31,169 bases of DNA from Gonapodya prolifera JEL478 (lineage: Eukaryota > Monoblepharomycota > Monoblepharidomycetes > Monoblepharidales > Gonapodyaceae): the NCBI GenBank assembly GCA_001574975.1, contig KQ965734.1, forward strand, positions 964,579-995,747, read 5' to 3'. Below are positions 8,327 to 29,860 of this stretch, in pieces (the first letter of the stretch is position 1; each line of letters starts with the position of its first letter). Made by a program: the position numbers and the translations under genes. The notes under the pieces were generated by a model, which worked only from the letters and a program-made list of their open reading frames with translations, was not told the origin of the DNA and did not search any database.

Positions 8327-10136
8327 TCATTTTTCGTTTTTCGCGTGCCAGCCCTTCGTACCGCAATTTAAGAGCTCTTCCGTTGGAGAGGTCGGCGAAA
8401 GGCCAGCTTGCTTTATCATACCATACGTGGGGTAATTCGTGTAGCCGTTGCGATCTGGGTTGTAGAAATAATCATGGTCCCATGGTGTGAGTTCAAAATC
8501 ATTGTAGTACCGATCGACAAGGTCGGGATTGCTGATGAAAAACTGTCCCACAGCGACCAGCTCGGCTCTCTCGTCCTCAACGTCAATCGCAGCACGGTCG
8601 CGGGTTTTGTAGCCGCACGTCATGCGAAGAGTGCTTGATCCTTTTGCAACCTGAACCGACGTGTTTTTATTAGTGAGATGGTAACTACAGCCAAAATGTG
8701 TCACTCACTGAAAGGAATTGATCCAAGCCCAAGCTCTCTGGGTCGAAGGTTTGTTCCTTGTTCCCGGCGATGTGATCTGGGGCTCTTTGGTTGGGAGGTT
8801 CGACGAGGTGGACTAGACGTGCAGAGACAAGCACATTAATGACATGAGCATACTTTACCTCAGCCCTGTTTAATAATAGAACTCACCGTACGCGAGTTTC
8901 AGCTCAGTGCAGAGCGCAATCGCAGCCTTAAACGTCTCTTGCGTCAAAGGCACACTGGCGTCTTGCATATCACCAGCGTGCCCAAAGGGGCTGAACCTCA
9001 CACCGACACGATTTGGGGGATACACCGTAAGAATCGCTTCAAGAGCCTCGCGGAGGAAACGAAGACGGTTTTCGAGAGGATAGAACGAGTATGGGTCAGG
9101 CTGCTCGCGCTTGTTCGTGACGTCTTGAAGGAACTGGTCGACGATACTGAACGAAACGGTTGAACAGGTGAATACGATGAAGTGCGCATGATACTCCATG
9201 ATACGCACTAGCCATTGGCGCCATGCAATTCCACACCATCGAATCCGGCCTTTTTGGCGTTTGCAGCGGCATGGCGATATTCTTCGATAGCCTCCTTGAT
9301 ATCATCAAGCGTCATTTTCTTCGGTGTTTCGACTTCGACCATGCCGTAAGGCTTCACAAACTTGCGCAGCTTCGGCCGAACGGCAGATGGGGCAAGTGGC
9401 GGCTCGTTACCGGGCTGGAAGTCTGGCGTATTGGTTGGGGAGGGTTTAAAACAAAGGGAACGGCCACAGATAGGACAGTTATACTTACAGGAGTGGCTTT
9501 GCCTCCCTGTATGCCATAACTGGCAGAAAAACACGCCCTTCGATGCATGTACTTCCTGAACAATTTCGGTCCAACGAGCAACCTGTTCTTCGCTCCAGAT
9601 TCCTGGGGTGCTGTGGGAGCCCACTCCATGATGGGAGATGTTCTGGAGGAGTTTGTAGTGATTATGGCAGTAAGAATCGCTTTAAAAATAATCGGAACTT
9701 ACCGTAGCTTCCGAAATTAGGAGGCCACACGAAGCTCTTTGGGCATAGTACTCCCCGACAAACGGTTCTGGGACGTAGTGTGGCTATCCACACCGAGATG
9801 TCATTCGAATTGAGCCATTATGTGAAGAGAATAGCACGTGAAGAGTTGCTCGATTCACGTACAATGTCGGAACACCTTCTGCGCGTGCAGGGAGCAAAGC
9901 AAAGGCGATTCTTCAGGACCAGGCCATCACCCAAGTCTGCGAAAGAAAGGTACAAGACAACAAGACGATTGAGCTCAACGGTAATTCGTCGATTCTTCGT
10001 CAATCTCACCGATGGGTTTGAACAGCTGGAGTTTATCGCTCGGAGGCAAATTTTCGCTCCTTCCGGGAACACGTGGATTCGGGAGTATTTGCTTCTGCAG
10101 CGGAGCGGTGAGTACATTTGTAGACGGAGGTGCCAT
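8327..10136 (-). CDS. Old yellow enzyme family FMN oxidoreductase (about 445 aa)
   Basis: Eight exons, all in phase: 10010-10136, 9863-9936, 9703-9783, 9489-9642, 9209-9422, 8887-9146, 8709-8812, 8327-8650. The family (NADPH dehydrogenase / 12-oxophytodienoate-type ene reductases) reduces activated C=C bonds with FMN in a TIM barrel. Family landmarks in order: LKNRLCFAPCTRRR (FMN-binding Thr), EYYAQRAS, GVFFCQLWHTGRQ, LAPSAV, then ELHGANGYIVDQF, which holds the His/Asn substrate pair and the nearby catalytic Tyr, GVRFSPFG, and ISNPDL near the end with the usual GY.NYPTY close. The protein is somewhat longer than usual (about 380-400 aa) because of a 40-residue N-terminal extension and a longer tail. 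Odd: the conserved GRxF before the NPDL motif reads GQFF (codon 8543-8545), replacing an Arg that contacts the FMN phosphate in known structures. Confidence 0.92.
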
Positions 10137-13359: not shown

Positions 13360-14811
13360 TCACACCACGTCAAACCCAACCTCGCACACCACCTTCCCCA
13401 CCGTTGTCGCCTCGGCACGCATCTCAGCAACAACGCGGTCGCACCACGCCTTCTCCCCGCCCATGGGCGCACCTGTCAAGGCCGCTCTTACCGTCACCAG
13501 CGGGACGGGGAGCGCTCGGACAATGGCGCGCACCAAGGCAACGTCCAGTGCCACACTCTGTGGAGACCACGCGGCGCGCAGGATGCGCACCTCGGCGCGA
13601 GGGATGCGGAGGGGGAACATGTGCCCCAGGCATGTCGCGAACGCTTCCAGGCGGCGATCGAGGATTGGGGAGGGCAGAGGCGGGGCCGGGAGGGTGGGAG
13701 ATGTGTACAGGATGGCCACGCCGGCGGGGTGCGTGGTGTAAGTGGGGAGCACGGCAGGGGTAGATCCGGAGGCGAGTGTGGACCATACGGCGTCCAGGGG
13801 TTGGAAGTAGCCCAGAAGGGAGAGGTTTGGGAAGCGGGAGAAGTTGGCGCGGAGTCGGTCCGCGAGCGCAAGTGGGTCCGTGGTGCCTCCGGCGTCGCTG
13901 TAGGGGCACAGGAACGACGTGATGCGGGAGGTGTCGGGGGTGTGAGTGTGTGGGAGGTCGGGCGGGGTGTCGTTCAGGTTGAGGGGTGGCAGGCTGGTGT
14001 CGAATGAGAGATGGCAGAGGTTGGGAAAGCTCTTGACGGCCATGGCGACCATGTCGTCCTCGTCCCCTTTGTTTAACCGAGTCGTCGTTGTCGCCGCAGC
14101 TGTCGCACGATTGACATCGACGACCAATCTCCTGACGGAATCTACTCTACGCACGCTATTGGTATTGGCAAGGTAGCTCTCCATCTTCCGAAACGCGTCC
14201 GCGTCCACCCTGAGCGACACCGGACACGCCTGCAACGCGGCAGCAAGTAACGGCATACTGTACACTGGCGCGTCCTGCGCCTCCCCCAACGCCGCGATAT
14301 CGACCACGCGCACACGCAAGTGCACATCACACTTGCGGTACTTGCGCACGATATGTGCCACGTCGTTCAGCAGCGACGATCCTGCCCCCGACCGCATCCG
14401 TGGCACGTCTGCCTCCACGCGCCCAGCGACACTGAGTCCGCGCCCAGTGACCGGGTCGAGCGCGAGGACGAAGCGCGGGTAGAACGTGGGCACGCTGACG
14501 AGGTACAACGGCCGCGGGTGGTATGTGGAGGTGAGCTTGATGTCCACGTCCAGGGCCAGTTTGGGGGGATCACCGCCGAGGAGCATTTGGGCGGCCGAGC
14601 GCCAGCGGCGGGATACGAGTTGGACGGTGCGTAGGATTGTGGGCGGGGGGAGGTGCAAGAAGCATAAGAGGAGGATTTCCGAGGGTAGGAGAGCGATGGG
14701 AGAGGTGCGTGTGCGGGTGCGTGTGCGGGTGCGGCGGAGGGAGGATGTGGATTTCAGCGACGATGGGAGGCGGGCGAGCCAGGGGATGGGGGAGAGGACG
14801 CTGCGGAGCAT
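13360..14811 (-). CDS. F-box protein, single exon
   Basis: One uninterrupted frame of about 483 codons from the ATG at 14811; the frame is open further up to an ATG at 14934, but those extra 41 residues look non-coding. After a basic leader with an RTRTRTRT run (encoded by alternating gtgcgg/gtgcgt units on the plus strand) comes an F-box: LLPSEILLLCFLHLPPPTI, then VQLVSRRWRSAA. F-boxes bind Skp1 and make the protein a substrate adaptor of an SCF ubiquitin ligase. The remaining 400 residues are Leu/Val/Ala-rich without a repeat I can name (no Kelch, WD40 or clear LRR), so the substrate-binding part is unknown. The ORF is GC-rich, and the absence of introns contrasts with its neighbours. Confidence 0.85.
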   Translation of the reverse strand: MLRSVLSPIPWLARLPSSLKSTSSLRRTRTRTRTRTSPIALLPSEILLLCFLHLPPPTILRTVQLVSRRWRSAAQMLLGGDPPKLALDVDIKLTSTYHPRPLYLVSVPTFYPRFVLALDPVTGRGLSVAGRVEADVPRMRSGAGSSLLNDVAHIVRKYRKCDVHLRVRVVDIAALGEAQDAPVYSMPLLAAALQACPVSLRVDADAFRKMESYLANTNSVRRVDSVRRLVVDVNRATAAATTTTRLNKGDEDDMVAMAVKSFPNLCHLSFDTSLPPLNLNDTPPDLPHTHTPDTSRITSFLCPYSDAGGTTDPLALADRLRANFSRFPNLSLLGYFQPLDAVWSTLASGSTPAVLPTYTTHPAGVAILYTSPTLPAPPLPSPILDRRLEAFATCLGHMFPLRIPRAEVRILRAAWSPQSVALDVALVRAIVRALPVPLVTVRAALTGAPMGGEKAWCDRVVAEMRAEATTVGKVVCEVGFDVV

Positions 14812-15043
14812 AAAAAGGTGGGGTGGCTGAAAGTGGCCACAGCAGATGGGTCCTCCATGTCCAGTCAAACCTGTGATGTGGGCGTCGCAGGCTGATAGAT
14901 TGAGAGGTCTTGCTTGTACAACCTTTACTTGCACATCTATCTACATCTTTCTCTAACTCTCCACCTGGTGACCTGGACTGCCCAGCACAGGTGCTCCACA
15001 CCGCCACGCCTTCCTCGAAGTCCATCTATGCCGCACCAGGAGC

Positions 15044-16210: not shown

Positions 16211-16843
16211 CTGCGAGCACAGGCGAGCGCAAGACAGAGTAATTGGAGTATCGAGACTTACTTTTCAAAAATGCAGTTCAGAGTGGTCTTGGTACGCCTC
16301 GTCGGCCTGGTGGAATCCAACTCTGCCCCCATTCGAGGGCCGGGGAGAGTATAGTTTGGCCCTTTCTCTTGTCTCGCAGCCATTTGCGGTCAGCGACGGA
16401 TCCCTTGGCCCATGCGCGTACAAGGCCATTGGATGATGTGGTGTATGGCGCTGGATGCGAACGCAGCGGCAGACATGCGCTCGCGAGATGAGATGTCTTG
16501 CCATTGAACAATGATGGTACATGGGCGCCGCCATGTCATGGGATAGGGATGGCGGGCGTGGCTGTCGTGAGGCTGAGACTGCGTTGGGATATATGAGGCT
16601 GGTACACAGGCGGATACATTAGTACAGGTGGTATTGTAGGGCCGACTTATTAGACTTCCAAAAATGGAATGGCCGTGGCTTTTGTTGGTGTGCACTCGAG
16701 GGGTGAGGCACAAAAGGTGACACACGCACCCACGACCCACACCAGACAGGGCCATCGCACGGGTCGGAGACGCAGGCGAAGACGAGACCTGCGCGCACAG
16801 AAAAAACAGGGAAACGGCGGGAATCGACCTCAGAGCATCGCGG
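16211..16843. other. Intergenic / unresolved 5' exons region
   Basis: This 633-bp stretch separates two divergent genes. On the minus strand it contains a good donor (GTAAGT around 16256-16261) and open frames over 16265-16534, so it probably holds the missing first exon or exons of the Cys-rich gene. On the plus strand it should contain the promoter of the ABC transporter gene. No RNA gene or repeat is seen. Confidence 0.4.
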
Positions 16844-19800
16844 ATGGCGAGCGACAGGAGAGACACTCTGGCCATGGGTGGGGCGACACAGGGGACGGGG
16901 ACGGGACAGGCCACGCGCGGCGTGGGCGGAGTCGGCGTCGGCATAGGCGTGGGAATGGGAATGGGCATGGGCGTGCGCCCCGTCTCGCCTTCCTCGCCCG
17001 TCTCGCCCTCTTCCCCTTCCACGCCCCCCTTGTCCCCGCTCTCCCCGCGCTCGCCATCAGCAACCCCAACATCCCACGCGCCACTCCTCTCAGCCCTCCC
17101 GCCGCTCTCCCCGCGCTCACGGGCCTCACTCGCTTCCCCCTTCCCCTTCACGACCTCGACCGCCTACGCGATCCAGGCGAGCGACGCGGCGGACTTTGAC
17201 CCAGAGGCCGCCGCGCGCGACCTGCCACCGCTGCTTCCACAGCCCCCGCTCCCGCCATACACACCACCGAACCCGCCCCTGCCCTGGTCAGACACCCTGG
17301 CGTTCAACTCCCTGCCCTCCCGCCTCGCTATCCTCCCCGCCGCCATCGCGTCCCTCCTCTCGGGCGCTGCACCACCCGCACTCGCGTGGATCCTTGCCGA
17401 CATGTTCGCCGTGTTCGCACGGTACGCCGCTGCCTCCACATCCCCAACCGCCACCACCACCCCCACCTCCGACTTCTCTCCCTTCCCCGCCACGTCGACC
17501 GCCGGCTCATCCACGGCCCTCTCACCCTCCATCACCCGGGCGCAAGCCCAATCCGACCTCGACGTTCTCCTCGTCCGTGCAGTCATTGTAGCACTCGTCG
17601 GCGCGCTGGCCGGGTGGGTCGCCGTGTTGCTGTGGAGGTGGATTGCCGATGGCGCCGAGAGGGAGTTTCGGTGAGTGTGGTGGTGTTCCCGGGGGTTAGG
17701 GGGGGGTGGGGGGTTAGGGGAGGCGGGGAATGGTACACGTGTGTGGGACACGCGGCATTAGGTGGCACGAGCCCGAACACAGTCGAGCCTGAAAAACATT
17801 CTACGGCAGAGAGCGGACAAAAGCGATAGAGCTACCTGACACGGGAGCGTGAAGTCGCAAGTGGTGGGGTGAGGATGGGGAGTTTGACCCGAGGTGGGGC
17901 ACCAGCCACGACACAGTCGAGCCACAGAAACCTGCTTCAGGAGGGACCAGAACTCAAACTAAGAGAGTAACCTCGCGTGGCGTGAGGTTGCGAGTGGTGG
18001 GGCCAGGGGCGGGGAAAGCAAGTCCTGTCTGGGCAAGAGGATGGCATAGTGTCGGGGGTGGGCCAAAAGGTCGCACCACCCACGACACGGTCGAACTGTG
18101 GGACGACGTGACGTCAGGCTCGACAGGACCATACCGAAAGAAATCCCGATCCGCGCGCAAGGGGTGGATTGGTGCAGTGGATGTGGATGTGGATGGAGCG
18201 CGCGCCAGAATAGAACGAGGACCGTGACGGATGTGCCTCCCCGCACGATTGTTGGCTTTGAAGGGGCGCGCACGTGGGAAGGGAACGTTGTCATGCCACC
18301 CGTGGTGAAGTTGGAGGTGGTGCCTCCCCCTGCGACACCCGCTGTGGTGGCTGTTGCAGCCTCGCTGGAAGGGAATCGATGTGGCGTGTGGTGTGGAAGG
18401 CGTCGGGGTGTCGTCGAACGAAAAGGAAGGGGCGCGCGCTGTTGACCGTCATTCTAACCACGTCCTGCCCCTCTTCACCCTTCACTACCCTCAATCTCAC
18501 TCCCACTCCAACCCCCACCCCCCCACCTACCTCTCCACCCACCCCCCTTCCACCCCACCCACGTTCAGTCTCGCCTACTTCCGAGGCCTGCTGCGACAGG
18601 ACCTGTCCTGGCACGAGTCCGAGGCCGCGTCGCCGATCGAGGTGGTCACGAGTTTGAGGAAGTGAGTTGCTGTCGGTGGGGTTGGGTTTTGGTGGGGAGT
18701 ATTGTCGCTGACGTTCGGTTAACTGTTGCGCCCCCCCCCCCCCCCCCTTCCCCCTNCCCCCCCCTCACCGCACCACCCACCACCCCCAGCGACCCCCTCC
18801 TCTTCTCCCACCTGCTCTCCACCACCATCCCCACCCTCATCACCCTCCTCTCCACTTTGCTCCTCTCACTCATCCTCTCCCTACTGCGCGCGCCCCTGGT
18901 CGCGCTCGTGGCCTGGGGCGGCGCGGCCGCCATGGCGTTGGGCCTCGAAGGCGTCGCGAGGTGGAGCGCTCGTGTCGGGCGCGAGGCTGTAAGACGCCAG
19001 GAGGGCGCGGGGAGGGTCGTGGGTGGGGTTGTGGGGAATGTGAAGGAGGTGGGTTGGAGCTGGGACGGGGTGGGGTGGGATGGAAATTGCGCGGGGGAGT
19101 GGGGGCAGTAAGCCTTAGGTGCCGGGATGTGGAGTGGATGGTGGCGGTGGCCGATTTCGTGTCGCTTTCGTTGACACATTCTTACATCCACCCCCACCGC
19201 ACAGGCCATGCTGCACAACGCCCTCCCCCACGAATCACGCCGCTTCCACCTGCACGCCCTCGCATCTCAATCGCTCGGCGAACGCGCGGCCCACGCGCAC
19301 GCGCTGTCGCTGTCCGCGGCCGGCGCGCTCCTCATCCTCGTCGTCGCCGTTGCCGTCCTCGCGGGAGCCGCGGCCGTCGGGGGACTTATGGGGTCCAAAG
19401 TTGGGCCCGGGGACGTGGTCGCCGTCGTCGTGCTTGGCGTTGTTGGTGTCGTCGCCGCGGGCGGGGGGAGAGGGAGGTGGGAGGAGGTTGCGGCGGGGAG
19501 AGGCGCGGGCGGAGTTGGGTGGGCGGTGATGAGGAGGGTGAGTGCACGCGCTGTGGAGCCGGGTGCGGAGATTTGTGACGGCTTACGCTTGATGTCCTCC
19601 CCGACCCCGCTCGTTCCACTGATGTCAGGTCCCGATGGAATCCTCCGGCCTTCCTCGAACGTCCCGTGCCACATCTTCCCCTGGCCGCCCTACCACCCCG
19701 TTCGACCCTCTTGGGCCGCCTACGTCCGCCCCCCCTTCTCCCGCGCGGCCCAGTTCGACTCCCCCGCACCTCCCTTCACCAGCCTCCGCGCCCCGCGTCA

Positions 19801-22800
19801 CGTTCCGATCCGTCCGCTTCTCCCCGCCCACCCTACCGGGCTCCGAAACCCTCTCCTCATTCTCCTTGGACGTCCCACCGGGAGCCTTGTGTGCCATTGT
19901 CGGTGCCCCGGCGGACTTTCCTGTCGGGGCGCTTCTTGCGCGTTTATATGACCCTGACGATGGCGCTATTGAACTGGACGGCTGTGATGTGCGCTCCGTC
20001 CCCTTGTCCGTGTTGAGGCGCGGACTTGTCCACGTCGTCGACCCGGGCGCGCCGCTGTTCTCCGGTACCGTGGGTGACAACGTTGCCATGGGGCACCCAG
20101 GCGGACTCAGAATGTGTACGGTAAACGAGGTGGAGGCGGCGTGTGGGATGGTGGGAGTGGACGAGAGCATCAAGGCGGCAGGGTTGGGCGAGGGGTACGC
20201 GGCCAGGGTCGAGGATGGAGGTGAATGGCTGGGAGATGAAGTGCGAAAGAGGCTGTTGGTCGCGAGGGCTGTGTGTGGTGCGAGGGGTGGTGTAGTGGTG
20301 ATTGGTGAGTGTTCAGGTGTTTTGTGGTTGGGGGAGGAAGGATGCCACGTGTGATGAATGCGCTCACCAAAATATCCTTTTACAGACCATGCCACGGACA
20401 CGATGGATGAAATTCTCGAAAAAGCCCTGGTACACACCGTTGCCCGAGCAGGCACACCAGCTCTTTCACTCCATCCAGCAGCCCAGGCTCTCCCTCCGAC
20501 ATCTCTTCCTCGTCCACGAACAACTATCCTGCTCACCAATCGAATCACTGCCCTCCACTCGTCGGACCTGGTGGCCGTTGTACGCGATGGGCGAGTAGCG
20601 GAGTTTGGCACTCTGTCCAGGCTCTCTGCGCAACGAGAAGGACCGTTCAGAGACTGGCTGGCTTCTTCTCGCGCAGTGGGTGGAGACGTGGCTATGGCTT
20701 TGGCAGACGCCATCCTCCCCCCACCAGCAGCTGCGCGTGCTGCGGACGGCGGACTTTTGGTACCCCCCGGTGGGGGGTCTGGGGTATCCTTAGCGCCGAG
20801 GCGACGGCGTCGACCGCGAACGGCCGATCAGATGCGTACCGTGTCGCTGAAGGCGCTGTCTCAGCGGGTTCACGCGGGATCGCGGCAGTATGTGACGGAT
20901 TTGCGGAGTAGGGAAAGGTTAGCAGCGTTTTCGGGGCCAGACGGACCCGGGTTGAGTGACCCGACCCTGCCTGGTTATGTCGATGGGCGGAGGCTTTCGG
21001 CAAGTGCATCTGGTATGAGTATCAGCACATTCGCTACGAATACGACGGACGGTCCAGGGCCTATCACAGTTGCCCCCCACGCCTTTTCTATGTGGGATCT
21101 ATTTTTAATGAACAGGCCCGAGTGGCTTCTCATCGCCGTAGGGTCAACCTTTGCAGCGATCAGAGGGGCTGTACTGCCCTGCTTTGCGGTTGCACTTGCA
21201 ATGGCATTCTCGGTGATCTCAGGCTCAACAGATCCATTTGGGAACGTTGGCATATGGGTGATGATTTTGGCCGTGTTGGCGTGCGCGGAGGGATTGTTCT
21301 TCTACCTCAAGGTTGTTGTGCTTGAGGTGACTGGAGAACGTCTCACGATGCGAGTGCGGAGGCAGCTTTTTGACGCGGTGTTGGGGAAAAGCCTTCAGTG
21401 GTTCGCCCAACCGGGCCACGGAACCGACGTTATCTTGGCTCGTATGGCGACAGACGCCCCACGGATTCGCGGCGCTACCACGTCCAACCTCGGCAATGTC
21501 ATCAATTTCGCCGTAGGATTTCTCGTTGGTGCAGTGTGGGCGCTTGCCGTCGGATGGAAGCTCGCTCTGGTTGGACTTGCGTTTGTTCCCGTCGTGTTAG
21601 TCGCAGCGCAGATGGAGGCGGCAAGTGTTACGTCCACTGAAGGACGGACTTCTAAAGCTCTGGGTGATGGTGATAGGATATCATTTGAGGCAGTAGGAAA
21701 CATCGAGACGATAAAGGCCATGGCACTTGAAGGGTGGTTTGTTGACAGGTACCGAAGAAATTGGGATTCTGGCAAGGCGTACGAGAGCTGGCTTGGATTT
21801 GCGCTGGCTTTCGGTTTTGCACTGTCGCAGATGGCAGTTTTTATGTGCCAAGGTGAGTTGGCGTTTGCCGTTTTTGAGTGCAGCCAACTACGACAAAATT
21901 GTTCACTTTAAAAACACCTGTTTGCACTTAGCTGTACTCTTCTACTATGGCGGTCGTCTGATCACCTTGGATGAATATGCCATTTACCAAGTGCTCATCG
22001 TGTGGGCTCTCCTGGTTTTCTGTTGTGTCACCGCAGGCCAGGTGATTGGCCTCTCCTCGGTCGTCTCCAAAGCCCGTGAATCAGCTACTGTCATTTCGGA
22101 GCTCATCACTTCTTATGACGACCGGCCAAGATCTGCTGGGACTTTTCGGGGTGATGGTCGGGGACCAATTGAGTTTCGGGCGGTGTCGTTCTCCTACCCA
22201 CCCCTTCGCCAGCGATCACTCAATGGTCTTACCCTTACGATTACGTCAAATCAAAATGTGGCGCTGATGGGAATGCAACCAGACAGTGGACAGCTTGCCA
22301 TTGTCGACGTCCTGTTGAAGCTTTATGATGTCACCAAGGGGAACATTTACTTTGATGGAGTGGATGTTTCAAGCTGGGACGCCTTCACTTTGCGAAATAG
22401 AATCGGAGTTCTCAATAGCAATGCTCCTTTAGACAACTCCAACATTTTGGAAAATATCTTTTACGGGGCTCGTAAGTCAATCGCATTTCTGTTACTGAAA
22501 GCGTTGATCATAACCGTTCATATTCATTCCTTTCAAGGAACTACGTCAGTTGCAGAAGCAATTGCCGCTTCGAAAGAAGCTGGGCTACACGCTATTATGA
22601 CAAAGCGGCATCTCTCTTATGGCACCGTATGCTACGATCCCTACCACCCTGAAAATACCAATTCTGTCATAACTGATGATGTTCGGCGACATATCCTACT
22701 TGCTCGAGTGCTTCTTCGCAATCCTCGTGTCTTGATTGTGAATGAATTGGACGAATATAGCTCCGTGGGATCAGAGCGAGGCAGAGGGAACGCTTTCGTG

Positions 22801-23043
22801 ACGCCATCATCGGCATCTCTTCGGGCATCAGAGCTCGCATTCGTGGAGACTTTGTCGCGCGTCGCGCAAGGTCGGACATTCATTTGGCTGCCGCGGTACT
22901 TATCTGCAGTCCCCGCTTTCGAAAGTGCATCCTCTGCTTTTGAAAGTGATAGAGTGCGAGTTCTCGTGTTAAAAGAGGGAGATTTGATTTATGAAGGAAC
23001 TGCGGAAGACCTTCTTGCGAGGACGAATGCACAGCCTGTGTAA
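16844..23043 (+). CDS. Full-length ABCB-like exporter with degenerate ATPase sites (about 1566 aa)
   Basis: Eight exons in phase: 16844-17670, 18569-18661, 18790-19048, 19205-19537, 19629-20304, 20386-21852, 21932-22471, 22538-23043. Layout is TMD1-NBD1-TMD2-NBD2 as in P-glycoprotein-type exporters, after a long Ser/Pro/Gly-rich leader. Family marks: YFRGLLRQDLSWHE in TMD1; ARLYDPDDGAIELDG in NBD1; MRVRRQLFDAVLGKSLQWF in TMD2; LLKLYDVTKGNIYFDGVDV in NBD2. Catalytic motifs are lost: NBD1 Walker A reads GAPADFPVG (no Lys), Walker B/D-loop IDHATDTMD, H-switch LTNR; NBD2 Walker A GMQPDSGQLA, Walker B LIVNELDEY, H-switch WLPRY; neither has LSGGQ. ATP hydrolysis is therefore unlikely. The exon chain is intact, so it is not an evident pseudogene. 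A role as a non-catalytic channel, sensor or scaffold is inference. Confidence 0.88.
17691..17728 (+). other. G-run tract with two TTAGGG units (G-quadruplex candidate)
   Basis: Just after the donor of the first ABC intron the plus strand carries runs of 5, 8, 6, 4 and 4 G separated by short spacers, two of which are TTA. This meets the usual four-run G-quadruplex pattern on the non-template strand, so it would be present in the RNA. The TTAGGG match to the common fungal telomere unit is probably coincidental. Confidence 0.6.
17769..18100 (+). repeat. Diverged tandem repeat inside ABC intron 1
   Basis: The core ACACAGTCGAGCC occurs at 17777 and 17911, with a diverged copy at 18085 (ACACGGTCGAAC). 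Another shared element, cGAGTGGTGGGG-like, recurs near 17858 and 17990. Copies are spaced about 134 and 174 bp apart. The intron is 898 bp, far longer than the others in the window, and this repeat accounts for part of the expansion. Confidence 0.5.
18731..18766 (+). repeat. Poly-C / pyrimidine tract with an N
   Basis: Seventeen consecutive C (18731-18747) followed by TTCCCCCT, the N at 18756 and more C. It lies just upstream of the acceptor of ABC intron 2 (18662-18789) and could serve as its polypyrimidine tract. Length is likely misread by the sequencer; it does not affect the reading frame because it is intronic. Confidence 0.85.
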
Positions 23044-23128
23044 AAGTATCTACGTACTGTGAGTATGAATGTATGTATAGTCAACAGTATTCGTATACAT
23101 GAATCGCCCCTACGCGGTACAGCACCGA

Positions 23129-23134
23129 TTTATT
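23129..23134 (-). terminator. Possible polyadenylation signal of the cyclin gene
   Basis: AATAAA on the minus strand, about 10 nt after the cyclin stop at 23145. Convergent with the ABC gene that ends at 23043. Confidence 0.35.
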
Positions 23135-23144
23135 ACTTGCACGC

Positions 23145-24685
23145 TCACTCGCGCAAAAGCTGCTCAATAAATTCGAAATTGGGGTTGGTCCTGAACACAT
23201 GCTTGTTTGAGGAGAGATCATCCTTGACCGATGAAACCGCCGATGTGACAAAGTTGGCATTCTCCGCCGCGGCTCGTGCACTCAGACCCATCATCTTAAT
23301 GTCACGTTGGTCCTGGTAAAGGCCGTTGTAAGAGATGTTGGTAAAGCCGCCGACAAATAGAAGCTTACCCAAGGGTCCTCAAACTGAAGGAGCTTCTTCG
23401 CAATAACGATGGCACCCGAGACCAGATCTGCCATCGTTAACAACAACGTTTCGTTGTGCAGTATGGCGCAATGGCACAAGAGGCTGACAAGCTGCTCGAA
23501 GCCTGCGTCCTCCTCGGAGCAAAGAAACTCGAAATAAGAATACGGTGTTGTCATGTTCAGGGAAATGTTTGGGTCCCACACGGCTGCACCCAATGCCAGT
23601 TGTTCAAGCTCAGCGATTTTGGTCGGGATGTTCGCCTCATCGTTACCAAGATATGCATCGGAAAGGTGGGATAGATTGATTATTTCCACGTCGTGTAACT
23701 TGGCCGCAAGGGTAGCTGAAGCCATTGCAATATGCTCGAGTCGGTTTCTTGGAACATTCGACGCGCGACTCATGAAAAAATCGAATATCCGGATCGCTGC
23801 GTGCTGGGTTGCAATACTCCACTCTTCGTTGAAAACCATATCAAGAATGAAGATGATGACGTTTGTTCGGTGCGACCAAGAGAGCTCGGGGTGCTGGTCG
23901 ATGTAGGCAACATTCACGGGTCTCTCCATCTGTCAATCACAACCAGCTGCTTTTCACAGAAACAAGAGGAGCGCCGCACAATATCATCTCACCTCCTGAG
24001 CGACGAGCTCCTCCCTCCTCGCAAGCCAATATTCAGCGTCAAGCTCTTCCGCTTTGCCAACAGTCCAACCTCCAGGGCGAAAATGAGAGAGCCTAAGAAA
24101 TAAAAACAGTCCGCTGCTCCATTGTGATGAAACTTCTAAACGCTCACCCCTTTGCTGCGGCGGCCGAGTTCAGTTTCTCCGCGCATTCAAATGCCCGCTC
24201 GCTGGGGACACAAACAAAGAACTTGAATTTAAAGCCAGTTTTGGCCCGTTCAGCACTCTCTGTTATGTGCAGAGCACGCGGTCGGGAAAATACGTTCGTT
24301 GCTTCGGGATCTGTCACTAATCAATGGTTGGAACCCATGCCAAAAATCTCGACATTCAGTTCTCACGCATAGCTTCCCACTGTTTTGTCAGTATCCCAAA
24401 CATTTCCTGGGCTGTTTCTTTGGCAACCAGAGAGCGGCTTCGCACTGAGCATGTAATATTCCGATACAAAAGTTCCACAGGTGCCACGATTTGCGTTGGG
24501 ACTGGTCTACGTAAGGGAAGGATTAAATTTGAGGAAAGAAGACAATAAAACAACAGCCGTTACCCTGGTAATACGCTCTCCTCACGCCCGACACGGAAGG
24601 TACCCGGAACAAACACACCCACCCTTTGCACGGGGATCTTCTTAGCTAAAATGGGCGGTGCCAAAACACACCAAAACTCACTCAT
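23145..24685 (-). CDS. Cyclin-box protein with N-terminal extension (about 400 aa)
   Basis: Six exons in phase: 24564-24685, 24367-24506, 24148-24259, 23993-24092, 23369-23929, 23145-23312. The large exon encodes a cyclin N-box: YIDQHPELSWSHRTNVIIF, then IRIFDFFMSRASNVPR and IAMASATLAAKLHD, with a second helical fold after it, as in cyclins that bind and activate a CDK through the Arg/Lys-Asp/Glu pair of the box. The first 155 residues are not cyclin; they include KFFVCVPSERAFECAEKLNS and end in WLARREELVAQE just before the box. The subclass is unclear; A/B-like is a guess. The start ATG overlaps the end of the small upstream ORF. An in-frame ATG at 23929 could give a shorter product. Confidence 0.8.
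23166..23171 (+). terminator. Possible polyadenylation signal of the ABC gene
   Basis: AATAAA on the plus strand about 120 bp after the ABC stop. It falls inside the last exon of the convergent cyclin gene, so the two 3' UTRs would overlap. Confidence 0.3.
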
Positions 24686-25025: not shown

Positions 25026-25489
25026 ACGAGTCGATGCGGGGTGCGGGTAGAGTATGGCGTCACTGAACAATGAACAAAGGAAGCTCCGGCGTCCGTTTGC
25101 GGGTCGAGCGTAGTCGGTGTGTGCCCAACAATCACTATCGTGTCGGACGAGGGGATGTAAGTGTGTCCGGCTTCGTGATTGATTACGGAGTGAGTGTACA
25201 ATACGAAACATTCATCACTTTCAGTAATATGACCTGTACGAGTACAATACTCAACATTAATCACTTTCAATTATCACAACTCTCAAAATTTAGAACCATA
25301 TCAATGAAAGTTCTCAGCAGTCCTATCAGTAGAGTAATCTTAGATAAATCTCAGATTTGGGAAAAGTACCTCTGAGACACAGACTTCTCGAAGATGAAAA
25401 TCACAAACCTGATATAGAAAACAGCAGTACCCAAGACTGGAATGAGTCACTGAACGGCAAAACGGCAAAATTAAGGGCCATCATCATCC
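25026..25489. promoter_or_regulatory. Divergent upstream region of the small gene and carrier A
   Basis: A 464-bp stretch between two divergent starts. The part 25190-25350 is A/T-rich with several AATA and TTAT words, as expected for promoters. There is no clear TATA box, repeat or RNA gene. Confidence 0.35.
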
Positions 25490-27679
25490 ATGAAAGATTC
25501 AAAGAGCACGGCGGCCACCGATTCAACGAGGGGGCCGGCCATCGAGCAGCAGAGGAAACACCAGCGCGTATCTTCCCGCGGTAGGCCACCTCTGGTATAT
25601 GACAGAGCGGAGCCTTTGAAACGGAGGGCAGCGCGCGTCCAAAAGCTTTTCGAAGAGCTGGACCGCGACAGGACTGGCTATATCGAGTACGGAGATCTAA
25701 AATCAAAGCTTCAAAGCCTTACTCCCACCAAGCAACTCAGGGAGGAAACGGTCGAAGACTACTGTGAGTCGAGCTCAGTGTTCAGAGATCCCACCATCCT
25801 TCAAAACTTTCAATTATAGCAAACCATTTCATGGAAAGAGTAGACCTCAATCATGACCAGAAAATATCATTCGAAGAGTTCTCCATCTTCGTGGAGTCGA
25901 AGGAAAGGGAACTCTGGGATCTCTTCTCTCAACTAGATAGTCGGGGAGATGGATTCATTCGGCGAGACGACCTCGTAGTAGCGTTCAAAGAGGCAGGTAT
26001 CAAGATTGACAGAACTGGACTGGACTCTTTCATGAGGGACGTCGACCGAGACGGCAACGGTGCGTCCAACGTTCCCATGCTTCAATTCAGTGTTACCCCA
26101 ATAATTTACAGGTCTTATTGACTTTCCGGAGCTTCGGGACTTCCTCATTCCTCTATGGCGCACCTCCTCACTCCCACACATAATCGAATTCTACCGCGAT
26201 GTGTACGATCCATCCCTACACATTGAGTTTATGCCCTCAGTCGAACCTATCCCTCAGATGCGCTTACGATCTTTTCTCGCTGGCGCAATATCAGGAGCTG
26301 GTGAGCACCTCCTGTTGCTGCTTTTACTTCCTAGTCTGAAGATGTTTCGGAAAATGATTTTAACGTCTTTTGTCCAGTGTCTCGCACTACAGTGGCACCA
26401 CTCGAGCGTATACAATGCCTGATGAACACGCAAACTCATCGTGAATTTCGCTTCTCACGGGACTTTGTCGATTCGGTGAGGGCGATTTGGAAACAGGACC
26501 ACTTACGAGGATTCTGGCGTGGAAATCTAGGTAATGCACCCCCTCGCTCGTCGCGAAACACAATGCAGAAAGCAAATTAGCACATTTGGACACTAGTCAA
26601 CGTACTTCGAATTGCGCCGTCCATGTCCATTACGTTTGGTGTATTCGAGGAAGCAAAACGTGCTCTCGCGCGGCTTGAAGGTGTGTCCATTAAAGACCTC
26701 AGCCCGGGTGACCGATTTGTCGCGGGGGCGATGGCAGGACTGTCCAGTATGACGGTTACTTACCCGTTTGAGGTCGTTCAAGGTGAGTAGATCAACAAGG
26801 AAGAAATTGAATATACTCAAACGGCGTTCTTTGTCAAGTCCGCATGATGGCAACGATTAATGTTCGTGACACGGCGCAAGGTTCCTCCACGCCAATTTTT
26901 CGCCAGGGAAAAGCAATGGAGCCCCCCGTCAGTTCTCCCACCTACCCGATGTCTCCGAAATCCAACTTTCCATCATCCGCTTCACAAGTACGGTCCGTCA
27001 ACACTGGCGCAGGGCAGGCCACTAACGCGTTCTTCGGATCACCGCGACTACATTCGCGACCCGTACTTTCCACATCGCTCATCCTGGAAACTGTAAGGAG
27101 TATGTGGCGAGAAGGTGGTGTAAAAAGGTTCTATAGAGGCCTGGTGCCATCCATGCTGGGGATTGTTCCTTACGCTGGTGAGCTCAGACGTCTTGATCAG
27201 TTTCGTTTGCACGGGCTAACGTCCTCGGTCTGTAATTACTTAAAGGGTTGAACCTCATGACGTACGAAACGCTCAAACAAGCCTACCTCAGCCGCATCCG
27301 CGACCCCTCATCCACCTCACCGGCATCACCATCACCATTTGCTTTGCTTGGTATCGGCGTCGTAGCCACAGCAACTGGCGCCTCTGTTACCTACCCCCTT
27401 TCCGCGGTTCGTCAGAGACTGCAAGCACAGGGGACTGTAAGTCATCCGCAGATGTATGCTGGGATGAGGGATGTGTTTGTAAGGACTTTCAGGAATGAGG
27501 GCATCAAGGGCTTCTACCGAGGGTGAGTTGCCTTCACAGCATCTCAACTTGAGCCGCCTTTGAGCCGATCACCGAGCAGGCTTCCCGCCTCGCTAGCTAA
27601 AGCACTGCCATCGGCGTCTATCTCGTATGTTATCTACGAAGTGGCAAAGGACGCGCTAGGCGTTCCAAAGGGAGAATGA
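25490..27679 (+). CDS. EF-hand mitochondrial carrier A (SCaMC/Sal1-type ATP-Mg/Pi carrier, about 585 aa)
   Basis: Eight exons in phase: 25490-25763, 25820-26059, 26112-26300, 26378-26530, 26597-26782, 26839-27177, 27246-27522, 27580-27679. The N-terminal half has four EF-hand-like loops: DRDRTGYIEYGD, DLNHDQKISFEE, DSRGDGFIRRDD and a canonical DRDGNGLIDFPE. The C-terminal half is a three-repeat SLC25 carrier with signatures APLERIQ, TYPFEVVQ and TYPLSAVR, and matching RGNLVNVLRIAPS, PSMLGIVPYAG and YRGLPASLAKALPS. Such proteins exchange ATP-Mg for phosphate across the inner mitochondrial membrane when cytosolic Ca2+ rises. The family usually has P-x-[DE]-x-x-[KR]; here repeat 1 ends in Gln. 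An extra Ser/Pro-rich stretch of about 60 residues follows VVQVRMM in the second repeat. Paralogue of the next gene. Confidence 0.93.
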
Positions 27680-27875
27680 CTTTCCTCCCCATTTTTTTTT
27701 CTCTTCCTTTTCCCCTTTAGATGCTACAATAAGTAAATATCCTCCACGACTCTGTGACATGTTAAAGTTTGTTTAGACTAGAAAGAAAGCGACTAGACGT
27801 GAGAGAAAGGGTGTAAAATGATGAATCATCAACCTCGGTCATTTAAAACATCGCTTCCGACAGTATCGCGGTCTG

Positions 27876-29860
27876 ATGGGAGCCAACCTGGATGCCGCGT
27901 CTTCTCAAGGCCATCCAAAGGCGCCGCGTCTTTTTCATGACTCCAAGGAGCGGAGAATCAAGAGGATTCGCAAATTATTTGATCGCCTAGACACGGACAA
28001 GAGCGGCTATGTGGAATTTAAGGAGCTAGAATACAATATCTTGGGACTCCGTGGAAACGCGGCATCTGAGGACACTTCCCGGCGTCTCAGCCGTGATTTC
28101 ATGTCCCATGCCGATCGGGACGATGACAGGCGATTGTCATTCGAGGAGTTCTACGAGTTCGTCGAGGGCAAAGAGAAAGAGCTGTGGAAGCTCTTTCGGG
28201 AAATGGACCAGGACTCAGACGGATTCGTCAAGAGGGTAGACCTTGTGGGTGACACAGTAAAACGCCGCACTGTGAAAGAGTCCAACACCTCGCCGTTTCG
28301 CAATGAAGATGAGAGCGTTTTCCGATGCCGGAGTTTGCATTGACGAAAAGGGATTGGATGCCTTCATCGGACGGGCGGATAAAGACGGAAATGGTGAGCT
28401 CGTGCAGAACATACAGGTAGAACACGCCTTGCTGAACTCCCTTCGCAAAGGCCTTCTCGACTTTCCTGAGCTTCGCGACTTTTTAATTCCGCTCTGGAAG
28501 ACGTCCCTTCCGGATATTGTACAGTATTATCGAGATGTCTATGACCCATCACTGGTTATTGAATTTAATCCCGTTGTGCAACCTGATCCAAACAAACGAT
28601 TAAAATCGTTTTTGGCAGGAGCTGTATCTGGAGCAGTCAGCCGAACAAGCGCAGCGCCACTTGAACGCATCAGAGTACTGATGAACACGCTGACCACGAA
28701 GAACCAGACATTCTGGAGGGATTTTGTGAACTCAGCCAAAGCTATTTATCATGCGGACGGTGTTCTTGGGTTTTGGAGAGGAAACTTGAGTATGTGATAC
28801 GTCACGCCCTTTGATGTGCGATCTCAGTGCAACGGAACTCCGCTTTGCTTTAGTAAACGTTATTCGAATCGCTCCTTCCTCTGCTATAACATTTGGTGTT
28901 TTCGAAGAGTCTAAGAAGACTCTCGCTCGCTTGGAAGGTGTTTCGGGAAGAGACTTGTCACCACTTGGTCGGTTTCTTGCCGGGGGATCAGCGGGGATGG
29001 TTGCCATGACGACAACGTATCCATTCGAAGTAGTTCAGGGTGAGCATTCGAGCTTTTGACTGCTTTGAAGACAAGAAAAACGGATGTCCTTGCAACTGCA
29101 GTTAGAATGATGGCAACCGTTCATGTTCCAAGTGAGAGCGACTCACCAAAGAATGTAGCATCCCCCGGGCTCGGGGCCGCTACGGCTGCGCGCTCAGGTT
29201 CTCACGCGCGAATGGTGCCATCAGGTGGGACCGCCGCTGATGGCCGCTCACCATTGCTTCTTCGAATAGTAAACGGAATGTACCGCGATGGGGGCCTCAG
29301 GGTGTTCTACAATGGATTGCTTCCGTCCATGATTGGAATCGTGCCTTACGCCGGTCTGTAGCCAGGCGTTGGCTCAATGCAAACCCAGTCCTTCATCACT
29401 CCATGGTTTTTCGTTTAGGTTTCAATTTTATGACTTATGAATCTCTTAAGCAATCATACTTTCGCCACCTCAAGCGCCATGCCCCTCCACACACCCAAGT
29501 CGAACCGCAATCTATCGTCCTACTTGCCTTTGGAATCATTGCCACCAGCTCTGCCGCCACCGCAACGTATCCACTTGCTACCGTTCGCACTCGGTTGCAG
29601 GCACAGGGAACGCCTGCTCACCCGTTTCGCTATGACGGAATGGTCGACGTATTTCGGAGAACTTGGCAGCTTGAAGGATGGTGGGGATTCTATCGAGGGT
29701 ACGTGTAAAGTTTATGATCACTCTTCAGCTCACTTGTAAACTCGGCTCAATGATTAGGCTTCCCGCGTCTCTCACAAAAGCCGTCCCTTCCGCTTCATTG
29801 TCGTACGTTGTTTATGAATGGGCGAAGACTACCTTAGGAATCGCCTCGAAGAATGACTGA
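27876..29860 (+). CDS. EF-hand mitochondrial carrier B, tandem paralogue (about 537 aa)
   Basis: Seven exons in phase: 27876-28244, 28309-28393, 28451-28789, 28854-29039, 29102-29353, 29419-29698, 29758-29860. EF loops are better preserved than in copy A: DTDKSGYVEFKE, DRDDDRRLSFEE, DQDSDGFVKRVD and DKDGNGLLDFPE. Carrier signatures are APLERIR, TYPFEVVQ and TYPLATVR, with RGNLINVIRIAPS and PSMIGIVPYAG. Substrate is inferred to be ATP-Mg/phosphate as for SCaMC carriers. It starts 197 bp after the stop of copy A, in the same direction. Five intron positions are shared with copy A (after DGN, GNL, VVQ, PYAG and YRG); copy B has one of its own (after VDL) and lacks two of copy A. The 57-nt intron after DGN is in frame if retained. 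Confidence 0.93.

Follow-up and report, generated by a model that had tools for sequence, protein, structure and literature searches.

Closest described systems

ATP-binding cassette (ABC) exporters are defined by a motor that is driven by adenosine triphosphate (ATP). Each composite ATP site is formed by the Walker A and Walker B motifs of one nucleotide-binding domain (NBD) together with the signature motif of the other NBD. In full-length members like P-glycoprotein (ABCB1), ABCB19 or PGP-1 two transmembrane domains (TMDs) alternate with two NBDs in the order TMD-NBD-TMD-NBD. Here, we describe a gene of this architecture found in a stretch of 31,169 nucleotides (G000:C4:964579-995747, hereafter the window) from a genome of 47.6 Mb in 207 contigs. 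It occupies positions 16844-23043 of the window on the forward strand. Its product resembles the exporters mentioned above in domain order, in similarity throughout all four domains and in the predicted fold of NBD2, but it differs from them because both NBDs are devoid of Walker A, the Q-loop glutamine, the signature and the switch histidine. Further differences are a long Pro/Ser-rich tail and a linker with a basic stretch. The best explanation, to which we assign a probability of about 0.6, is an intact gene for a full-length protein of ABC-B type in which the architecture of an exporter persists and the ATP machinery is gone from both composite sites, i.e. a pseudo-ABC exporter independent of ATP.

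Degenerate nucleotide sites in otherwise folded exporters are well known. The accessible part of a review on such sites (PMC7756269) deals with exporters that combine one degenerate and one working site, and TmrAB, MRP1/ABCC1, CFTR/ABCC7 and Pdr5 belong to these asymmetric proteins. They retain one working ATP site, whereas the protein described here has the catalytic set at neither. A second relevant system is SbmA/BacA (SLiPT), whose exporter-type TMD likewise has no functional ATP motor. According to the part of the source available (PMC13316013), SbmA is driven by protons, and its proposed ancestor is an ABC exporter from which the NBDs and coupling helices disappeared. In contrast with SbmA, which has a glutamate ladder in addition to these losses, our protein keeps both NBDs and shows no obvious ladder.

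Among fungi the four-domain architecture is shared by the full-size ABC-B groups I-IV (Ste6 and Pmd1 types), chytrids included, and the accessible part of the corresponding survey distinguishes four such groups and mentions none with both sites lost (PMC2848647). Surveys of mycorrhizal fungi (PMC4692070) and Trichomonas (PMC3378599) mention, in the parts available, pseudogenes and degenerate motifs and not an exporter with two dead sites. In the openly licensed PubMed Central literature, judged by titles and the openings of abstracts, no report of a full-length exporter that had lost both sites was recognised. The loss of both ATP sites in a full-length exporter is unusual. If true, a maintained full-length exporter without a working site is a natural test of what NBDs do beyond burning ATP, and also of how a primary pump becomes something else while its parts are retained. 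Moreover, automated counts of fungal ABC pumps may include proteins that are unable to pump with ATP. As a sequence this single gene is strongly supported, and the functions considered below are putative.

An ABC-B protein without a canonical ATP site

By descent the protein is, to judge from its sequence, an ABC-B-type full transporter. Its two TMDs and two NBDs can be aligned to ABCB in the same sequence of domains. The claim of a full-length ABCB-like gene made in an earlier sequence-only reading is borne out by comparison with solved structures, where the whole protein matches ABCB1 with an E-value of 1.9e-99 and a yeast Ste6-type exporter chain with 5.3e-62, and where each domain query found its counterpart. 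The best match of the NBD1 query is ABCB19 (1.1e-43) and that of the NBD2 query ABCB1 (1.6e-36), each of these two values combining the hits on the two NBDs of the target. Such similarity is beyond chance. The TMD1 query matches tuna P-glycoprotein (3e-15), and the alignment of TMD2-NBD2 with P-glycoprotein is continuous. In Pfam terms two stretches match ABC_membrane (190.1 bits) and just one matches ABC_tran (40.9 bits). In NCBIfam many bacterial exporter families were matched, every one of them far below its cut-off. Exon 6, which encodes most of TMD2, is the top ABC_membrane match among the 61 matching exons of the genome (124.2 bits), a rank it owes partly to the fact that TMD2 lies in one long exon. 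By hydropathy alone, the peaks fit approximately six helices per half, some of them merged, with one further peak inside NBD1.

The nucleotide sites were compared with a reference profile of 77 bacterial exporters. These remained from 80 loci of a genome_contigs scan after three were dropped, and each of them had to show both motifs in an open frame of 450 amino acids or more. Such a choice makes the reference canonical from the outset, and it gives no indication of how frequent dead exporters are in bacteria. Site columns were read from the hidden Markov model alignment of both halves of the protein to this profile. In NBD1 the A-loop tyrosine is replaced by P570, Walker A reads GAPADFP and is two residues short with D600 in the lysine column, and the Q-loop glutamine is P643. 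The LSGGQ signature has become LGDEV (705-709), the catalytic glutamate H731 and the switch histidine N781; the Walker B aspartate D730 and the D-loop aspartate D737 are retained. In NBD2 Walker A reads GMQPDSGQLA, one residue longer than the canonical motif and with Q1339 in the lysine column. S1381 stands for the Q-loop glutamine, ITDDV (1443-1447) for LSGGQ and N1467 for the Walker B aspartate; R1518 occupies the column of the switch histidine, as read from a second, weak segment of the alignment (1.9 bits). Retained are the A-loop tyrosine Y1307 and the catalytic glutamate E1468, and the D-loop columns of this domain fall outside the alignment.

Because each composite site pairs motifs across the two NBDs and the losses affect both, both sites are without lysine, glutamine, signature and histidine, and no canonical composite ATP site remains. 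The set of Walker B aspartate, catalytic glutamate and switch histidine is complete in neither domain. The sequence-only reading had called both sites dismantled. This is correct for the four elements named, yet slightly overstated, as one Walker B acid is left per NBD. Hydrolysis of ATP by such a protein would not be expected, as we infer from the residues lost.

The losses are concentrated at the sites. At columns conserved in at least 80% of the reference, 4 of 19 site residues survive in NBD1 compared to 41 of 73 others (one-sided Fisher test, p 0.006; 0.012 and 0.008 at thresholds of 70% and 90%), and 4 of 16 compared to 34 of 69 in NBD2, which is a trend (p 0.068). By comparison, three canonical fragments of this genome retain 12/13, 13/13 and 11/11 site residues. 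By these alignments the loss appears site-directed beyond chance in NBD1 and as a trend in NBD2.

Could the protein nevertheless sense ATP or adenosine diphosphate (ADP)? A regulator that binds nucleotides without hydrolysing them would have to use the residual Walker B and A-loop residues, and D730, D737, Y1307 and E1468 are indeed present; in addition, ATP binding persists at the degenerate site of certain exporters, as stated in the accessible part of the review (PMC7756269). However, both Walker A loops are without the lysine and other near-invariant residues, the loop of NBD1 is also two positions short, and both Q-loop glutamines as well as both signatures have disappeared. We therefore regard such a regulator as quite improbable.

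A canonical transporter masked by an error of the gene model or of the assembly is scarcely credible. The model was built from DNA alone without RNA, and one N is located within the gene span at position 18756, inside intron 2. The motif positions, on the other hand, lie within long open exons. Neither Walker A (GxxxxGK[ST]) nor LSGGQ occurs in the six frames of 16401-23300 or in the spliced protein, and the differences are many separate in-frame substitutions without a frameshift. Transcripts with alternative exons that restore the motifs, the case named in the sequence-only reading as refuting it, are very unlikely, since all lost motifs are intra-exonic.

Integrity of the reading frame

The eight exons predicted from the letters, their coordinates and the domain order all hold: splicing yields 1,566 codons followed by a single terminal stop. 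The seven introns (66-898 bases) are of the GT-AG type, with GTGAGT or GTAAGT as donor in six and GTGGGT in one. Exon 1 (16844..17670) comprises the start codon, the Pro/Ser-rich N-terminal tail of approximately 145 residues and, by hydropathy, the first two transmembrane helices (TM1-TM2) of TMD1, and is open up to its GT donor. TMD1 continues after TM2 in the short exon 2 (18569..18661), which is supported by frame, GT-AG borders and a gapless alignment with P-glycoprotein across the junction. It is completed by exon 3 (18790..19048, TM3-TM4 region) and exon 4 (19205..19537, TM5-TM6 region), both supported by frame, P-glycoprotein alignment and periodicity. Exon 5 (19629..20304) encodes NBD1 with its lost Walker A, Q-loop and signature, and its donor falls inside the codon of the Walker B aspartate. 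The end of NBD1 with H731 and N781, the basic linker with an RRLS site at residue 931 and the TM7-TM11 region of TMD2 are found in exon 6 (20386..21852). TM12 and the first part of NBD2, where Walker A and Q-loop are lost, belong to exon 7 (21932..22471), and the remaining NBD2 with the lost signature and switch histidine and the stop codon to exon 8 (22538..23043); both are supported by similarity and the predicted NBD fold. All exons lie on the forward strand. Between the last two, intron 7 (22472..22537, forward strand, GTAAGT..CAAG) measures 66 bases and is in frame and free of stops. Its translation of 22 residues breaks up the NBD alignment. Retention of this intron would add 22 residues to NBD2 without a frameshift.

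Pseudogene marks (stops, frameshifts, lost splice sites) are absent, as no internal stop occurs in the 1,566 codons and the splice sites are intact. Within exons 6, 7 and 8 each of the two alternative forward frames contains 5 to 18 stops, while the coding frame has the final stop only. First-order Markov versions of these three exons were stop-free in 0 of 400 cases each, with 14.2, 6.1 and 7.5 stops on average, and those of exon 5 in 2 of 400. Codon periodicity is far above that of shuffled sequences in seven of the eight exons (74.7 in exon 1 compared to a shuffle mean of 5.8) and in none of the seven introns. In a neutral simulation on the same frame, restricted to substitutions without insertions or deletions, 200 runs with a change of 10% of the amino acids produced 1-14 stops, with a median of 7, and at a change of 77% the median rose to 51 (range 31-73, 200 runs). 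Simple decay of the gene is unlikely, as the earlier reading had argued from open frames and good splice sites. Compared with simulated drift, the absence of stops suggests indirectly that the site residues were most likely lost while the remaining frame was maintained.

A related possibility is a gene on its way out, which has lost its function so recently that stops or frameshifts have yet to arise. It would agree with the strong divergence of TMD1 and with the fact that a genome search with the second half of the protein did not find a second close copy. In contrast, recent loss alone would not account for so many changes at both sites; many site residues are gone while roughly every second one of the remaining conserved NBD positions survives (41/73 and 34/69), no internal stop is present and seven of the eight exons show strong periodicity. 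A gene in this state appears rather improbable to us.

The base composition changes along the gene. The content of guanine and cytosine (GC) is 0.65 to 0.68 at 17001-20000 and approximately 0.50 downstream, and at third codon positions it amounts to 0.80-0.87 in exons 1-4 compared to 0.43-0.56 in exons 6-8. The GC-rich half of the gene is its more diverged half.

Conservation of the domains and predicted fold

Retention was counted over those columns in which one residue is shared by at least 60% of the reference. TMD2 keeps 28 of 86 conserved columns (33%) and TMD1 14 of 77 (18%); the values for NBD1 and NBD2 are 60/132 and 43/93, respectively. Single-exon fragments of ten paralogue loci, preselected by E-value and thus perhaps with overstated retention, keep 399 of 919 columns in the TMD (43%) and 1561 of 1997 in the NBD. 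The retention of TMD2 lies not far below that of the paralogues, and that of TMD1 is far below.

This pattern bears on a secondary or passive transporter, in which the helices alternate or form a pore and transport is driven by a gradient as in SbmA/BacA. Besides the better retention of TMD2, this alternative can refer to the SbmA precedent, i.e. an exporter-type TMD running on a proton gradient with a proposed origin from an ABC transporter minus its NBDs (PMC13316013, part available), and to glutamate E1031, which is located well inside one hydropathy stretch (TM8). It has to be weighed that SbmA possesses six cavity glutamates and neither coupling helices nor NBDs, according to the same part of the source, while the present protein retains its NBDs. 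Moreover, acidic residues occur mostly near the ends of the ten hydropathy stretches, and TMD1, with its 14 of 77 conserved columns, is strongly diverged. An SbmA-like pattern of several glutamates is not obvious in these ten stretches, a result that is not decisive as it relies on hydropathy without a TMD model. We consider a transporter of this kind unlikely.

Structure prediction of the nucleotide domains, proposed earlier as a check, gave an NBD-like model for NBD2 and a partial and weak one for NBD1. The AlphaFold2 model of the NBD2 region has a mean predicted local distance difference test score (pLDDT) of 78.2 and a predicted template modelling score (pTM) of 0.79. It reads straight through intron 7, and the intron-derived residues 139-157 are mostly below a pLDDT of 50; two further short segments also fall under this value. 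The best solved matches found by Foldseek are ABCB6 and P-glycoprotein. Alignment to P-glycoprotein chains with VIA-align resulted in Z 25.4 (root-mean-square deviation 4.5, 265 residues) and Z 24.8 (2.7, 250 residues; 6fn1_A). NBD2 thus seems compatible with the NBD fold, which is short of proof. A first NBD1 alignment made for folding was discarded because its tail was misplaced.

Controls in the same genome and search for relatives

As controls served 24 other loci of the genome with ABC_membrane matches, several of which are presumably ABCC-like instead of ABC-B, by motif style. They were searched with single-frame patterns, which miss motifs split by introns. A strict Walker A was found in 16 loci, LSGGQ[KR] in 20, both in 15 and at least one in 21. 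The locus on C129, with 145 N in the stretch, shows the variant AGGQK and that on C10 the variant FSVGQ, while in the locus on C54, situated at a contig end, neither motif was seen. This census is incomplete, as a PF00005 search of the genome scored only 19 of 173 candidates. One ABC_membrane match (G000:C76:9018-9218), which falls outside the 24-locus set, lies within an open frame of 3,117 amino acids.

Apart from the window, the best match to the second half of the protein in its own genome has 32% identity over query residues 260-424 of 608. A second haplotype or a recent duplicate was considered and rejected, none being found in this search. In a scan of viral_contigs with the same half one stretch fitted a pattern and none coded for a relative.

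Balance of the evidence and possible function

Several points weigh against the proposed pseudo-ABC exporter. A gene with a recent loss of function would look identical, and the site-specific loss in NBD2 is a mere trend at all thresholds (p 0.070, 0.068 and 0.109 at 70, 80 and 90%). The Walker B acid left in each NBD and the A-loop tyrosine of NBD2 make weak or unusual nucleotide binding still conceivable. Three of the 24 control loci, too, are without a strict motif, and the paralogue benchmark suffers from the preselection mentioned above. The search for further copies used the second half only, and weak matches can escape such searches. Regarding the frame, the GC-rich exons 1-4 provide weak evidence as they were stop-free in 39 to 200 of 400 Markov versions, and the periodicity of exon 2 (93 bases) is weak (13.8 compared to 6.3 in shuffles, standard deviation 3.5). 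The NBD2 model was built on an alignment of canonical NBDs and reads through the intron of 22 residues, so that a canonical fold had in part to be expected. For NBD1 the model is partial (176 residues), has a pTM of 0.54 and is without a strand that precedes the P-loop.

As a pseudo-ABC exporter the protein would work without an ATP cycle, and its NBDs would persist as folded but non-catalytic cytoplasmic domains tied to the transmembrane helices. Since the NBDs are retained and TMD2-NBD2 aligns continuously with P-glycoprotein, they probably stay attached as non-catalytic struts. As the likeliest function, with somewhat less than half of the weight within this explanation, a ligand-binding membrane receptor or scaffold may be proposed, which is favoured over a two-fold pumping pathway because TMD2 is better kept than TMD1. 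Second in rank, and tentative, comes a passive or gradient-driven conduit, with a smaller share. The sequence-only reading had mentioned a channel, a lipid scaffold or a sensor, and these roles are speculation.

Phosphorylation of the Pro/Ser-rich tail and the basic linker could serve as a switch. Residues 1-145 of the tail contain 12 pairs of serine or threonine followed by proline, and the linker contains one RRLS site. These features suggest a phosphorylation switch, although such motifs are weak in a composition so biased.

A radial-spoke protein of the flagellar axoneme is among the products of the same genome, and 36 chitin-synthase exon matches were obtained, so that the organism is in all likelihood a flagellated (zoosporic) fungus. 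It is possible, if doubtful, that a lineage of such fungi keeps a four-domain exporter freed of ATP, NBDs included, as an ATP-independent and perhaps phosphorylation-switched receptor, scaffold or conduit for lipids or amphiphiles. This would be a eukaryotic counterpart, with NBDs retained, to the route taken by SbmA.

Neighbouring features of the window

Directly downstream, on the opposite strand, a gene with a cyclin N-terminal domain is found (23291-23932). At 25475-29700 lie two adjacent similar genes that by eye combine EF-hands with a mitochondrial carrier; the carrier domain was matched in one fragment. Upstream lie, both on the reverse strand, a gene for an F-box protein (13360-14940) in a stretch with a GC content of 0.61-0.63 and an exon of the NADH:flavin oxidoreductase family (9208-9681). 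The region 853-1749 is repetitive and yields Thr/Pro/Gln-rich open frames, with frames open on both strands, and single Ns occur at positions 621 and 818.

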